Shown here piece by piece: positions 3,326 through 64,000 of a stretch of DNA of 64,000 nt. Position numbers and translations under genes: made by a program. Origin of the DNA: Moniliella sp. 'wahieum' (taxonomy: Eukaryota; Basidiomycota; Moniliellomycetes; Moniliellales; Moniliellaceae); the NCBI GenBank assembly GCA_003971905.1, contig RSEE01000030.1, positions 654,905 to 718,904 of the forward strand, read 5' to 3'. The notes under the pieces were generated by a model. That model did no database searches. It was not told the DNA's origin and worked only from the letters and a program-made list of their open reading frames with translations. How positions within the stretch are numbered: the first letter of the stretch is position 1; each line of letters starts with the position of its first letter.

Positions 3326-3349
3326 ACTCAGTACTCAGTACTCAGTATG
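3326..3349. repeat. Heptad palindromic repeat, TCA-GTAC type
   Basis: Three consecutive 7-bp units TCAGTAC/TCAGTAT. Each unit is a TCA triplet plus the palindrome GTAC. A nearby match is at 3704. Confidence 0.9.
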
Positions 3350-3703
3350 CATATTGCGCCCCATCGACCATCGGAGTCCTATACCCCACAGCCACCCCAG
3401 CTCGTCGTGACGTCATTCTGGCGGGAAGGCATCATATTGTGCCACCGTTTCGGCTGAGTCAGCGATCAGACTGATCGATGATCTCGCTCCCTTTTCAGGC
3501 TTCAAAGTTGTCACCTTTTCTTGGCCCGGCCAGGGCACGCAGCCATGCTGGGTCCGAAGCGACGCGTGGCTCCCGATGGGCACGTGTGGGAATATTCATC
3601 CCCAAGGGGGTTCGGACGGCGGGTGGCGGCGGTTGGCATGGTGCGAGTGGCCATGAGTGGGGTGAGCACGATGGACGACACAAGCAAACAAGCCATCGGT
3701 GCA

Positions 3704-3735
3704 TCAGTACTCAGTACTCAGTATCCATCATGCAT
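3704..3735. repeat. Heptad palindromic repeats, TCA-GTAC then TCA-TGCA
   Basis: TCAGTAC units are followed at once by TCA-TGCA units (TCATGCATGCATCATGCA). Two different palindromes share the same TCA spacer and 7-bp step within 32 bases. Confidence 0.9.
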
Positions 3736-4624
3736 GCATCATGCAGCAGCTGCGCTCGTCGACATTCAGACCCAGCGTCCCATTCGGCTGTGCTGCAACA
3801 GGCTGCAACTTGCAACACTGTCACTTCAACTTTCACATTTAACCGCCTCCTCGTTCCCATCGATCTTTTGATCGTCACGTTGTGACAATGTCACACGACC
3901 GCGCTGGCCGAGTTCACTTGGGTACACCCCCACCCTGGCCTGGCCCCGTACCGCCTCAGAAGATGTCTACAGGAGGGGTGAGGTGGATGACACCTCCTAA
4001 GCCCCAGGCCTGAGGCCGTGGGGTGGGGTGGGGGCAGGGGTGCCCTCGGTGGCTGGTGTGGGCTCTGGAGTCGGAGGGGGGAGGCAAGCACCGAAATGGG
4101 TGGTAGGACGTGCGCGTGAGCGAGAGCAGAGGTGTGAATGTGATCGGCAACATCACCCGTATCATTGTGACACGCGGCATGTGACAGTGTGCTGTTCGGC
4201 CTAGGTCATGCATCATGATCCTGCGGCAGTGCGTGGGCGGAACGCGTACCACGCAGCAGCGGATGGGCGATGGGCGATGGCAGATGGGCGATGCGCTGGC
4301 GGGAGTTCTGGCGGGTGCGCTGGTGCCTCCGATGCAGCTCGCCTTGCGCGCACCGTCCGCGTGCAGGAGGCGGAAATGCATGCTGGCCAGGTGCGGGAGC
4401 CGAAGGCACAGCGAGGATACTGGCGCTGTGCGAACATTTTTGGAGGGGGCGCAGCGCCAGCGGTGAGAACGACAAAGATCGGCAACACGCCCCCCGCCAG
4501 GGAGCATGCGAGGGGCAGGCACTTCAACACACTCGCCATCTGCGGTGGAGAAGAGCGGCTGCCGTGGCAGGCACTGGGCGGGCAGCACAGCGCAGCCATC
4601 TCAGACACCACAGCATAAGGCATG

Positions 4625-60025: not shown

Positions 60026-60550
60026 GGGTGGGCGGATGGATGCGCGGCACGCGGAGTGGAGCCGAGGGCGGCGGCGGCATTCTGCGGGCGTGGCGGCTGC
60101 CGGGTGCGGTTGCATCGGCGACGGCGCTGGCGGCGCGGTGCACGGCGGCGCGGAGCATGGGCAGGAGGGCAGGGGGAGGCGGTGGCGGCGGCGGCGGAGG
60201 AGGCAGGAGATGGGGCGTGTGGGGGTGGGGTTGGTTGGGTTGGTTGGGCCGATCGTATGCTCGGCGCTCGGCGCTCGGGCATGTGCCTGGCAAGTTTCAA
60301 CTCGATCGCAGATCTGCCTGTCGCTCGTTATGTTCGGTTGAATCGCATCCCCGCTGCCTTTCATGGCCGCGCATCGCCACGTGCCTGCGGCCGCAGCACC
60401 GCTCGTCCCGCCCTTGTGCGCCCCATCCGCGCCTCTGTCCGACAGCTATGGTTGGCAGTCGTAGAGCATTCAATATTCAATGCTGAATATCATCAACAAC
60501 ATCATCCTATCTGCCGTGGCCCACGCCTCCCTCCCCCCCTCCCCCACCGG
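60026..60550. other. Region between the hypothetical gene and PRP4
   Basis: About 525 bp. The part up to 60300 is triplet-rich (GGCGGC) and may hold the true N-terminus or leader of the hypothetical gene. Near 60467-60490 lies CATTCAATATTCAATGCTGAATA, a small AATATT-centred inverted repeat. No other gene seen. Confidence 0.45.
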
Positions 60551-62164
60551 CTACGCCCCCGCCGGGTGCAGCGCCGCAAAGAACGGGTGAGCGAGCGCCT
60601 CCTTGGCGGTGATTCGCTTGGTAGGGTCCAGCTCCAGCATGCGCTCCAACAAGCTCGCCAGTCGCTCCACCAGCAGCCGCTCCTCGGCCGTCGTCGGTCC
60701 AGGCGGCGCATCCGCCTCCCCCTTCCCCTTCCTGTCCCTTTGCCCAGGCCGAGCCGCGTGCGCATGTCCTCCTCCGCCCGGTTGAAGCTGATGGGCTTGA
60801 CCGTGCCCGCATCCCGCAACAGAAAGTTGCCTAGCTCGTCAAAGTGGGTCCGGGCAAACTGGCCACGCCGGGCCATACGGGTGGGAAAACGACCGCGCAA
60901 CCGCTGAAATAGGTACAACATGTGGTTGTTGCTCCTCCCTGGGAACAGGATCCGGGCCGTGTACAGCTCAAACAACGTGCAGCCCAGACTCCACATATCA
61001 ATCTCTGGTCCCGGCGCGCCCGATCCTAGCATAATCTCGGCGCACGGTAGAATCTCGAGACGAGGTAGGGAGCAATCTCCATCACTCGCTTGCCCCCTGG
61101 CACCCCAGTCGTGGGGTCCGCAGGAGCGTCGCCCGCACTGCCCAGGTCACACACTTTGAGCACTGCCTTCGACTCATCCACCAAGATGTTGTCTGGCTTC
61201 AGGTCGGCATGCACAATCCAGCCCGGGACAGCAAGGCCAGCGCGAGGAGGGATTGGTAGGCATAGGAGCGAACACCTCCAATGTGCAGCCCTACCCCCTG
61301 GCCAAACCGTTTGACCACTTGCCTCAAATTCATGCTCAGACTCTCAAATACGAGACAAAGATGGCCGCGGTGCACAAACTGGCCCAAGAGACGCACCACG
61401 TGCCCGCGGTCCTCGGGGTCGGCAAGCTGGATCCGCTCGAGCACAGAAGCTTCCCGCAGACCGGCCTTATACATCGACTCTTGGCCGGACAATTTTGATG
61501 GCCACCATCCTCCCCGCTTCGTCCTGGGTATCACGGCCCGCACCACCGAACTGAACATCCCCTTGCCCAAATTGGCCTCCACCACGTACCGCCCTTGGTC
61601 CAAGGCCTCACCCAAGGTCAGAGGGTAGTACCCTTCCGCATCATCAGCCGAATCGGCTGCTACAGGTCGGCCCGGAGCAACGACGGCGGGCTTGTCTCTG
61701 GTCTCCTTTTCGTTGTCCTTGTCCTTGGCATTGGCCTTGTCCTCGTCCTTCGCGGGAGGGGAGCTGGAAGATCCAAGGGCAAACATATCCTCGTCGTCAG
61801 AATCGTCTCCGGACGCTTCCTGTCCAGGGGGGGACACAGGCAAACCCTTACTAGCGAGAGCAGGAGCAAGGGACCGGGGAGCTGGAGCTACACCCTCCGG
61901 TTCCCGCAGTCGCTTCGTTGTGGCAGGGATCATGGTGGCAGCTGGCGGGGCAGGAGGGAATATGCAAGTGTTGAAGTAGAGCTGGCACAGCGGCCGGTTG
62001 CCGCTGGGCCCGCGGCAGGACCACAGGGGGATCGCAGGTGGGATCGCAACGGAGGGAGGCGCGATAGGTAGGCGAGATAGAATCGCCTCGCGTTTTCGCC
62101 TCCGCGCTTCCGCCAAACGGTCTTCTTCCCGTTCGTCAAGCCAGTCTTGGGCTGGGTTGGCCAT
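60551..62164 (-). CDS. PRP4: Pre-mRNA splicing kinase Prp4 (PRPF4B)
   Basis: Prp4 kinase phosphorylates U4/U6.U5 tri-snRNP proteins during spliceosome activation in the nucleus. The gene starts [20 protein letters not shown] at 62164. A basic/acidic leader ([20 protein letters not shown]) precedes the kinase domain. Landmarks in order: [38 protein letters not shown] (P-loop), [60 protein letters not shown] (catalytic loop), CDLGSAG (DLG in place of DFG), [32 protein letters not shown] and [20 protein letters not shown]. After a break near 60700 the end is [20 protein letters not shown] then [11 protein letters not shown] at TAG 60553-60551. Other breaks lie near 61490, 61230 and 61030. About 535 residues. 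The DxK and Asn catalytic residues are present. Confidence 0.95.
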
Positions 62165-64000
62165 TTCAGATAGGTGGACGGGCGGGGGGAGGGGTTGGCT
62201 AGTGGGGAAAACACAAAAAATTGTCCTTGCGCTTGCTTGATTTTTGGGCATTGCGATCTCTGGGCCCTGGATTTGGTGGCCATGCATTATGCATTACGTC
62301 ACCGCCACCCATGTCACCTCCCGATGTCACATGTGTGTCACAGGTGATGTCACCGGCCAGAAACAGGGTCTCCGTCGGCCGTGAAAAAAATAAATAGCAC
62401 GTCGCTCTCTCCATATATGTCTGTCCATCGCATACACGTATTCCCGTCGGCATGGGGTCCTCCCCGTATGAAGTCATCATGGGGTGACAAAGAGAGGCAA
62501 TGCTGTGACTGATCCAAGGCGGACACCGGCCGAGGAAGATAGGCCGACCATTCGTACCCGAGCACAGTGCAGAGCCCCGTGCACGCTACAACCCCTCCCC
62601 CGCCCCCCTTCACACAAACACACACCTCCAGACCCCGCGTGACGCGTGGATCCGACGAAGCTGCAACGAGCTCAGTGGAAAGCTGGGAACGACAATTAGG
62701 AACAAAGATGGCTTGGTGTGGAAACCGCCTTATATGCTTGACCTAGATCGTGGAGGATGGGAGCCTCTCGCTGAAAGGCTGTGGTCTTGGTAGCGTACAG
62801 CACTGCTAGTAGATTGAAGCTATTTATTGGCAAATCCATCCCTGACGATTGTGACGGTTCTTTCTGTTCCTTCCGTTCCCAGAATCTTATACGACTATAG
62901 AGCAAATGGGAGTCGATGTGTGCTCACGGAAACATAGTGCGTAGAAACGTTTTTCCTGTGAGCAATACATAGGAAGTGCATGAAGCCCGCTCAAGCAAAG
63001 GGAGATAGAACAACTATTAGACAGCTAAGACGGGAAACACATGTCCATCTGCATCACTATCAAATCAAGGACAGAGCCTGAACCAGAATTTAGGGGTGAA
63101 GCCCTTGGAGGTGTGGAATCAGATAGTTACACACGGTATGTGCGCGGCTTTTCATATCCTAATAGTTGATCCGAGCGCAAGTAGAGGCAAGGGATAGACT
63201 CTTAGTTGGGTGTCTGCCTGCATTCAAAGACCATTGCAGCTCAGTCCTCCGAAGTAGGAGCAGTGGACGTAGGTTGTAAGACCCTCCGTTGAAGAGGTCC
63301 AACTACTCCAGGGAAACGTGGGTCACTGGTCGTTACCACTCTCGACACGCTGTAGTATGAGGAACCAAACGGTGCTCTAATGAGACGAGCAAGCTCTATT
63401 TATTTAAGTAAACTGAGGTTTACAGAGTGATGCATGCGTCGCAAATTCTTATTCTTAGCGTAAGGTGAAGGAATCAAGGGTGAAGACTAAAGGTGACAAA
63501 AGGGAAGGGAGGACGGAAGAGTTCAGCGGGTGAGGATCACCGCCAGCAATCCTCAGCAGAAGGGTTGTTTAAATACCGTATACTGGCAGAACAAGGCTAA
63601 TAACAAGAAGAAAGGGGTCTACAGTAGTCTGGAAGACACGTGTGGCCTGTTCTGTCATATCAAGACCGCGGTCCGGTGGGCCGCAACAGAAAAAGTTCAG
63701 CCAAGATTGAGCGAGCAGTTACAAAGCTTCGTACTGCTACTTCCGCTATTGGCTCTCCGCGGAAAGTATCAGCGGCATGTGTTGTAAGTTGCCCATGCTG
63801 ACTCTCGCTCACTATGGTAGTCTCGTGGAGTCGCTCAACTCTGGCCTCCTTGCTTTCGCCATATCGGATATCTCGCCTGCAATCCCTTTGGCTGGACCCA
63901 ATCTCGACGTATCTTCTCTTTTTTCTCTTTGTTTCCTCGCTGCTTGTGGTCAATGCCCCTCTTCTGTCCACAATATGAAAGTTGATTATGAATTGATGGC
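62165..64000. other. Right-hand end of window, no gene supported
   Basis: About 1.8 kb upstream of PRP4. The first 200 bases carry TGA/TCA-type motifs (GATGTCACATGTGTGTCACA near 62324-62343). From about 62700 on the base composition is visibly more A/T-rich than the gene-bearing part. The frames at 63530-63787 and 63660-63971 have no motif. It may be a degraded mobile element or ordinary spacer. Confidence 0.45.

Follow-up and report, generated by a model that had tools for sequence, protein, structure and literature searches.

Self-complementary heptad arrays at TNA triplets in a 64,000-bp window of apparently fungal DNA

A tandem repeat is commonly characterised by its letters and its copy number. 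The 64,000-bp stretch of DNA analysed here (the window) appears to be nuclear DNA of a fungus, perhaps a basidiomycete, and all features in it are predicted from sequence. In its short tandem arrays the structure stays constant and the letters are free to change. A sequence-only reading of the window had proposed that these arrays share a strict 7-bp step, in which each unit joins a TNA triplet (N being any base) to a self-complementary tetramer, the core, and that the core changes between arrays while triplet and step are kept. Is this heptad rule real, what is its smallest unit, and what process may have written it?

Heptads of fixed structure and nearly free letters

An exact period-7 scan of the whole window returned 33 arrays of at least 15 bp, which manual sorting divided into 19 with TNA and a palindromic tetramer, 5 with TNA and a non-palindromic tetramer and 9 without TNA. 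Arrays of the first kind were absent from every one of 20 dinucleotide-preserving shuffles. At a length of at least 17 bp (~2.5 copies), 20 arrays remained: 12 were palindromic about TNA, 4 had TNA with a non-palindromic tetramer and 4 lacked TNA, and three of the four with TNA and a non-palindromic tetramer (18977, 45276, 45609) lie next to a palindromic unit. Since palindromic arrays outnumber non-palindromic ones and the shuffles hold none of the former, the refutation test that the sequence-only reading had set for itself favours the rule.

Most other counts, including that of hairpin stems, were made in predicted non-coding DNA, defined as the window minus the calls of a codon-score segmentation (trained on Pfam-matched pieces) and minus the long coding repeat at 47,201-52,751. 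This leaves 14 segments and 45,790 bases; the model is rough and conservative, and true exons remain inside. The exact period-7 arrays, the direct 12-mers described below and a list of 80 TNA-palindrome-TNA sites were counted over the whole window unmasked. Among non-coding 10-mers with the same triplet on both sides (TNA-N4-TNA), the tetramer was self-complementary in 67 of 120, whereas the 15 remaining outer pairs together gave 79 of 1,574 (1-12 percent for individual pairs), so the rule holds in a sharper form than had been claimed. An order-4 Markov null gave on average 20.2 TNA 10-mers, 1.8 of them palindromic. The 53 non-palindromic TNA 10-mers also exceed this null, yet they are no commoner than those of ANT (60 of 64) or ANA (55 of 59). 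An ordinary heptanucleotide slippage microsatellite has a unit sequence unconstrained beyond composition, which is not what is observed here.

The rule is specific in spacing, period and triplet. With TNA on both sides (any N), the intervening bases were palindromic in 79 of 187 cases at a gap of 4, while gaps of 2, 6 and 8 gave 19/65, 0/98 and 1/84, with no excess over other complementary outer pairs. We also counted, among non-coding runs of a given period with at least five matching bases and a TNA, the units that are fully self-complementary about TNA. These made up 62 of 93 at period 7 (chance ~1 in 16) and 10 of 46 at period 14, a multiple of 7, compared to 3/12 and 8/34 at periods 5 and 6 (chance ~1 in 4), 3/30 at period 8 (chance ~1 in 16), 1/48, 0/24, 1/24, 1/32 and 0/34 at periods 9-13, and 0/37 at period 15. 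Chance is exceeded at period 7 and its multiple 14 only. A letter-permuted test over periods 3-15 likewise found a self-complementary excess at 7 alone (19 of 33, with 7.9 expected).

Palindromes outside the tandem form behave differently. Even palindromes in general, with arms up to 8, showed no clear excess, and isolated odd palindromes about TNA, outside TNA-palindrome-TNA neighbourhoods, were weak (116/403, ANT 113/444). Stems with a TNA loop and non-palindromic arms occurred at 4 of 1,729 TNA triplets, or 2.3 per 1,000, within the 1.3-6.6 per 1,000 spanned by the 16 outer pairs. With no surplus of such stems, the rule is a property of the tandem form.

The smallest unit is a direct 12-mer consisting of a pentamer TNAwx, the reverse complement of its last two bases (x'w') and the pentamer again. 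Perfect copies numbered 43 with TNA and 0 each with ANT, CNG and GNC, from 2,493, 2,302, 5,263 and 5,382 anchors respectively; the order-4 Markov mean was 0.07. The mirror 12-mer, which overlaps the direct count in longer arrays, was found in non-coding DNA 34 times with TNA, once each with ANT and CNG and never with GNC. Palindromic-TNA runs in non-coding DNA numbered 128, 35, 13, 10, 24, 13, 6 and 6 at 8-15 bp, then 1, 1, 1, 4, 3, 1 and 1 at 16-22 bp, with one more at 24 bp. Because chance extension would fall steadily, the peak at 12 bp marks a real unit of five matching bases. Duplication of a whole unit would have two full copies (14 bp) as its smallest product, a length at which there are 6 runs, with 24 at 12 bp and 13 at 13 bp.

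Phase points to the same unit. Among the 24 runs whose length is exactly 12 bp, 15 begin with the T of TNA, 4 are mirror and 5 lie in other phases, so that direct and mirror phase account for 19 where 6.9 would be expected under uniform phase, and all four 19-bp runs are in direct or mirror phase, that is, 5+7n. The 62 runs of at least 12 bp, which we refer to as the 62 arrays, comprise 22 in direct phase only, 13 in mirror phase only, 16 in both and 11 in neither. Pentamer repeats with a one-base or three-base reverse-complement insert occurred at chance level (89/360 and 1/188). Four-base repeats with a 3-base insert were above chance (52/802) and have the identical 7-bp step; we take these to be the same heptad arrays.

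Within this frame the letters are nearly free. N in the 62 arrays is G in 29, C in 20, A in 7 and T in 6, tracking the non-coding background (TGA 625, TCA 626, TAA 237, TTA 244), and the arms take 14 of 16 possible values, the commonest core occurring 9 times. The sequence-only reading had counted 13 of the 16 palindromic cores; ATAT is added here, and AATT and TATA are absent. Across the 80 TNA-palindrome-TNA sites, N is the same on both sides in 67, complementary in 6 and otherwise different in 7; the single site in predicted coding DNA (47022) has two different N. Alignment of 35 oriented sites revealed no strong flanking consensus. Of 42 pairs of neighbouring arrays no more than 400 bp apart, 8 have a common core (3.7 expected, p=0.027). 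The densest 2-kb bin, 56,001-58,000, holds 15 of the 62 arrays and 139 TNA triplets; clusters partly track TNA density, yet 88 TNA triplets go with no array in one bin and 110 with 2 in another.

Imperfect copies were also counted. One-mismatch relatives of the 12-mer numbered 34 direct and 39 mirror per ~1,725 TNA anchors (20-23 per 1,000), compared to 3-5 per 1,000 at ANT, CNG and GNC, from which ~7 direct would be expected for TNA, an excess such as decaying scars would leave. The 43 perfect 12-mers nevertheless exceed the excess of one-mismatch forms, and two-mismatch relatives lie near background, suggesting that the process is recent or that the sequences are kept.

How the arrays may arise

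We lean, at somewhat less than even chances, towards a local mutational process at TNA that duplicates five bases, places two fold-back-templated bases between the copies and is sometimes reiterated. It would begin with a single insertion of 7 bp at a TNA triplet, by which TNAwx becomes TNAwx-x'w'-TNAwx. By one route, the filling-in of a staggered end would produce the 5-bp direct repeat, and a hairpin-type fold-back would add two palindromic bases (P nucleotides); by another, which fits equally well, a short template switch would copy two bases backwards and then return five bases upstream. Copies beyond two could come from repeated events or from ordinary slippage. Because the letters are nearly free while the pairing and the T and A are fixed, self-templating or nucleic-acid structure would explain the arrays better than a protein reading bases, and the constant two-base insert together with the need for TNA suggests an enzyme of set geometry acting there. 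The sequence-only reading had offered slippage helped by small hairpins, templated repair and a family of dimeric DNA-binding proteins; templated repair is the best supported of the three, since a repeat-P-repeat order is the expected product of a staggered end and two fold-back-templated bases.

Several observations weigh against such a scar. No enzyme candidate was found, and the need for T and A lacks an explanation in the scar model. P additions vary in length, unlike the insert here, which is always two bases. Eleven of the 62 arrays match neither direct nor mirror phase, and two-mismatch relatives show little or no excess, being at or slightly above the level of other pairs. Core composition departs modestly from background TNAwx frequencies (chi-square p=0.012), and x, the base next to the symmetry axis, is G in 31 of 62 arrays, with ~19 expected.

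Simpler schemes were considered and rejected. A plain inverted duplication would complement N, as seen at only 6 of the 80 sites. A single transposon leaving a 4-bp remnant between TNA copies would need 14 different remnants, and of nine 10-mers whose run stops at 10 bp one is palindromic. Stop codons in all frames, on reasoning only, would not require a self-complementary tetramer.

The strongest competitor, which we consider unlikely, is replication slippage assisted by hairpins, in which heptamers that are self-complementary but for one base fold back and expand preferentially. Self-pairing fits the free, covarying arms, arrays of ~3 copies exist, and period-7 units are self-complementary above the letter-permuted expectation. 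Heptanucleotides are the commonest repeats of 5-11 nt in most bacterial genomes, and 7 nt might equal a polymerase contact length, according to Mrazek 2007 as relayed in the available text of MacGregor 2015 (PMC4679880). The predicted folding of 6.6-copy strands, however, gives mean energies of -18.4 kcal/mol for GNC, -17.4 for CNG, -12.4 for ANT and -12.0 for TNA, and only TNA occurs, so that frequency does not follow predicted fold-back stability as in a hairpin-driven, CNG-like expansion; the folding parameters assign a single value to every one of the 16 kinds of 11-nt triloop hairpin, and these energies therefore cannot rank loop preference. Heptamer duplication should also leave 14 bp rather than the 12 bp of the smallest unit, and the other periods from 3 to 15 lack a self-complementary excess. 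Part of the slippage idea thus fits, while the energy ranking and the 12-bp unit do not. Less likely again are selected elements, either protein-binding sites or nucleic-acid hairpins with a TNA (UNA) loop whose stem letters are free but paired. Free covarying arms about a fixed TNA resemble structure-based recognition, the arrays lie outside predicted genes and are clustered, and perfect copies outnumber the one-mismatch excess. Against this, TNA-loop hairpins with non-palindromic stems are not in excess, the second copy in the 12-mer is a direct repeat of all five bases, N included, where a stem would require no such identity, and the clusters partly follow TNA density. Arm values that cover 14 of 16 possibilities argue against a sequence-specific binding motif; no shared motif beyond the spacing was found, only T and A being fixed, and with a modest skew and no strong flanking consensus the proposed family of dimeric DNA-binding proteins is disfavoured.

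We give little credence to the idea that a cut-and-paste transposon of the hairpin-forming kind, duplicating 5 bp of its target (Transib/RAG-like or hAT-like), left these sequences on excision. From what is known of these families, target copy, P nucleotides and target copy make up the anatomy of the 12-mer at its 43 sites, and the direct repeat is 5 bp in minimal form. Yet P bases should vary in number and are always two, they always lie on the side away from TNA, a target starting with TNA is not symmetric over 5 bp, and reiterated copies are not expected. Selective reading or a composition artefact is extremely improbable: short words are easily overfitted in reading through 64 kb, but the other outer pairs, the shuffles and the Markov simulation exclude this, unless the sequence itself is an assembly artefact.

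If the arrays are scars of the repeat-P-repeat kind, the target triplet and the 5+2 geometry would implicate a particular nuclease, polymerase or transposase, and how short tandem repeats originate from non-repetitive DNA could be tested directly. The wider proposition, that a sequence-light DNA process in a fungal lineage recognises non-coding TNA and writes fixed-geometry 7-bp scars that yield self-complementary heptads of arbitrary letters, is possible but more doubtful than the local scar itself.

Arrays and predicted genes along the window

Of 22 positions named in the sequence-only reading, 21 have a TNA-palindrome-TNA 10-mer with the named core starting within 5 bases. TGCA at 3720 is the exception: the nearest TNA-TGCA-TNA is 486 bases off, and TGCA-TCA-TGCA without outer TNA stands at about 3733-3745. 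CTAG at 18971 is correct for the first core, but the next two cores are CTTG.

The exact period-7 scan located TCAGTAC arrays at 3326-3347 (3.1 copies) and 3704-3723 (both core GTAC), TGACATG at 4710-4724 (CATG), TGACGCG at 10542-10556 (CGCG), TGACCGG at 15598-15618 (CCGG), TCAAGCT at 45531-45550 (AGCT), TGAACGT at 57599-57613 (ACGT) and TTATGCA at 62282-62296 (TGCA). The same scan found a TAAGATC array (37028-37042) close to a TGACGCG array (37064-37078), and at 45260-45318 an adjoining series of a TAAGGCC array, non-palindromic TAATGCG copies and a TAACGCG array. Beside the TGACATG array, 4625-4704 holds 7.5 copies of an 11-bp unit, GCTGCCCCCTT. At 57584-57640, TGAAC words follow at irregular 7-8 bp steps, as though the heptad register had drifted. 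Period-7 scan and phase analysis together identified two 19-mers on the + strand, TGAGTAC at 15862-15880 (core GTAC), which is exactly TNAwx followed by two x'w'TNAwx, and TGACATG at 56062-56080 (core CATG).

The palindromic-run scan gave 12-mers on the + strand at 3472-3483 (TGATC-ga-TGATC, core TCGA, a minimal unit), 4206-4217 (TCATG-ca-TCATG, TGCA), 18842-18853 (TAAGT-ac-TAAGT, GTAC), 31625-31636 (TCAAG-ct-TCAAG, AGCT), 39600-39611 (TAAGC-gc-TAAGC, GCGC) and 44992-45003 (TGATC-ga-TGATC, TCGA), and 12-mers in mirror orientation, on the - strand, at 15498-15509 (TGCA), 15623-15634 (GTAC) and 19125-19136 (TGCA). It also gave CGTGACG twice at 36978-36991 (core CGCG), a TGAGTAC unit at 38540-38552, TGATTAA and TCATTAA units at 55450-55496 (TTAA), a TTAGGCC unit at 55894-55907 (GGCC), TGAGATC, TGACGCG and TGAAGCT units at 56694-56742 and a TCAATAT unit at 60468-60481 (ATAT). 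Both scans contributed to the TGATGCA 12-mer and array at 15539-15571 (TGCA), the stretch at 18970-18995, where non-palindromic TGACTTG copies, differing in one base, come after a TGACTAG unit, the cluster of a TCACGCG array, a TCATGCA 12-mer and a TAAGCGC unit at 40037-40096, the TCACTAG units and TGAGGCC array at 56451-56543, and the adjoining TTACGCG, TAAGCGC and TTAAGCT units at 57112-57152. Palindrome and run scans placed TCAGTAC and TGAGTAC units at 45582-45661; within them, 45583-45611 is a perfect 29-bp odd palindrome with arms of 14, built of GTAC heptads in opposite orientation.

Gene labels rest on Pfam profile scans of 50 open reading frame pieces, with curated cut-offs deciding. 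Above cut-off were Asf1 (288-1016), Nis1 (2280-2900), armadillo repeats whose best solved relative is Vac8 (8399-9430), RRM pieces (11656-12924), a PH domain of Mcp5/Num1 type (20955-21653), an Atg5 domain (25396-26154), glutamate-cysteine ligase (28178-29634), PCI and Rpn7 C-terminal domains (32027-32614), Rpn6 domains (33530-34937) and a secretory lipase (42111-43154); an MLLE piece (11486-11986) and kinase pieces (60502-62287) fell below it. No relative was confirmed for an Asf1 query against genome contigs or for an RRM piece and the secretory lipase against viral contigs. From 47422 to 52666, degenerate 30/60-bp repeats extend over more than 5 kb, and both strands have long open frames, of which those on the + strand encode Pro/Glu/Ala-rich repeats. 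That every clear example is intergenic, as the sequence-only reading had claimed, agrees with the position of all 43 direct 12-mers outside predicted coding DNA, as far as gene calls that are rough can tell. Stop-to-stop frames of at least 150 codons contain 20 of the 62 arrays, and the median frame is 101 over arrays and 166 over random non-coding positions.

Comparison with known systems

CNG triplet repeats fold back with one mismatch per unit, and such odd-palindromic expansions share with the window a unit that is self-complementary except for one central base. They have period 3 and C and G flanking the mismatch, whereas in the window the period is 7, the flanking bases are T and A alone and most arrays have 2-3 copies. 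P-nucleotide footprints of RAG or hAT hairpin ends and template-switch micro-insertions likewise combine a direct repeat, reverse-complement bases and a direct repeat; the window differs from these in its fixed 5+2 geometry, its TNA requirement and its reiteration.

The nearest described system is that of bacterial heptamer repeats. The available text of MacGregor 2015 (PMC4679880) describes intergenic direct repeats of TAACTGA in Beggiatoaceae, Cyanobacteria and Bacteroidetes. Neither TNA reading of that heptamer leaves a self-complementary tetramer, whereas the tetramers of the window are free yet self-complementary. Arrays of TGAGTAC are widespread in bacteria: genome contigs contain at least 116 stretches with them, and viral contigs 12; among the matches listed, contig titles include Planctomycetota, Acidobacteria, Chloroflexi, Bacteroidetes, Acidimicrobiia and others. 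The same bacterial and viral loci also contain repeats of near variants such as ACTCAGC and ACCGAGT. These arrays share with the window the unit of one core, the TNA plus palindrome and the 7-bp step. In 128 such loci (969,086 bases, chosen for their TGAGTAC arrays), with 599 TGAGTAC-class 12-mers set aside, the 12-mer occurred 11 times with TNA, 6 with ANT, 14 with CNG and 17 with GNC, showing no TNA excess outside that class. In the viral stretches that a CGCG unit (3) or an AGCT unit (27) brought up, the unit used for the search is the sole TNA-type unit, except that one of them (L133) has a further one. The 27 viral-contig stretches with TGAAGCT arrays are mostly of 34-41% guanine-cytosine content.

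A fixed-heptamer type such as TAACTGA or TGAGTAC has one dominant heptamer, and the window has 14 cores in 62 arrays. So far the many-core rule is seen in this window only, the comparison DNA being bacterial and viral and none of it fungal. In open-access literature covered as titles and abstract openings, a weak test of novelty, a structure-defined heptad family with free letters did not appear. Intergenic heptad repeats are already known; what differs here is that structure rather than letters defines the family, and free letters within a fixed structure are the fingerprint of a templating mechanism, readable from any genome of the clade.

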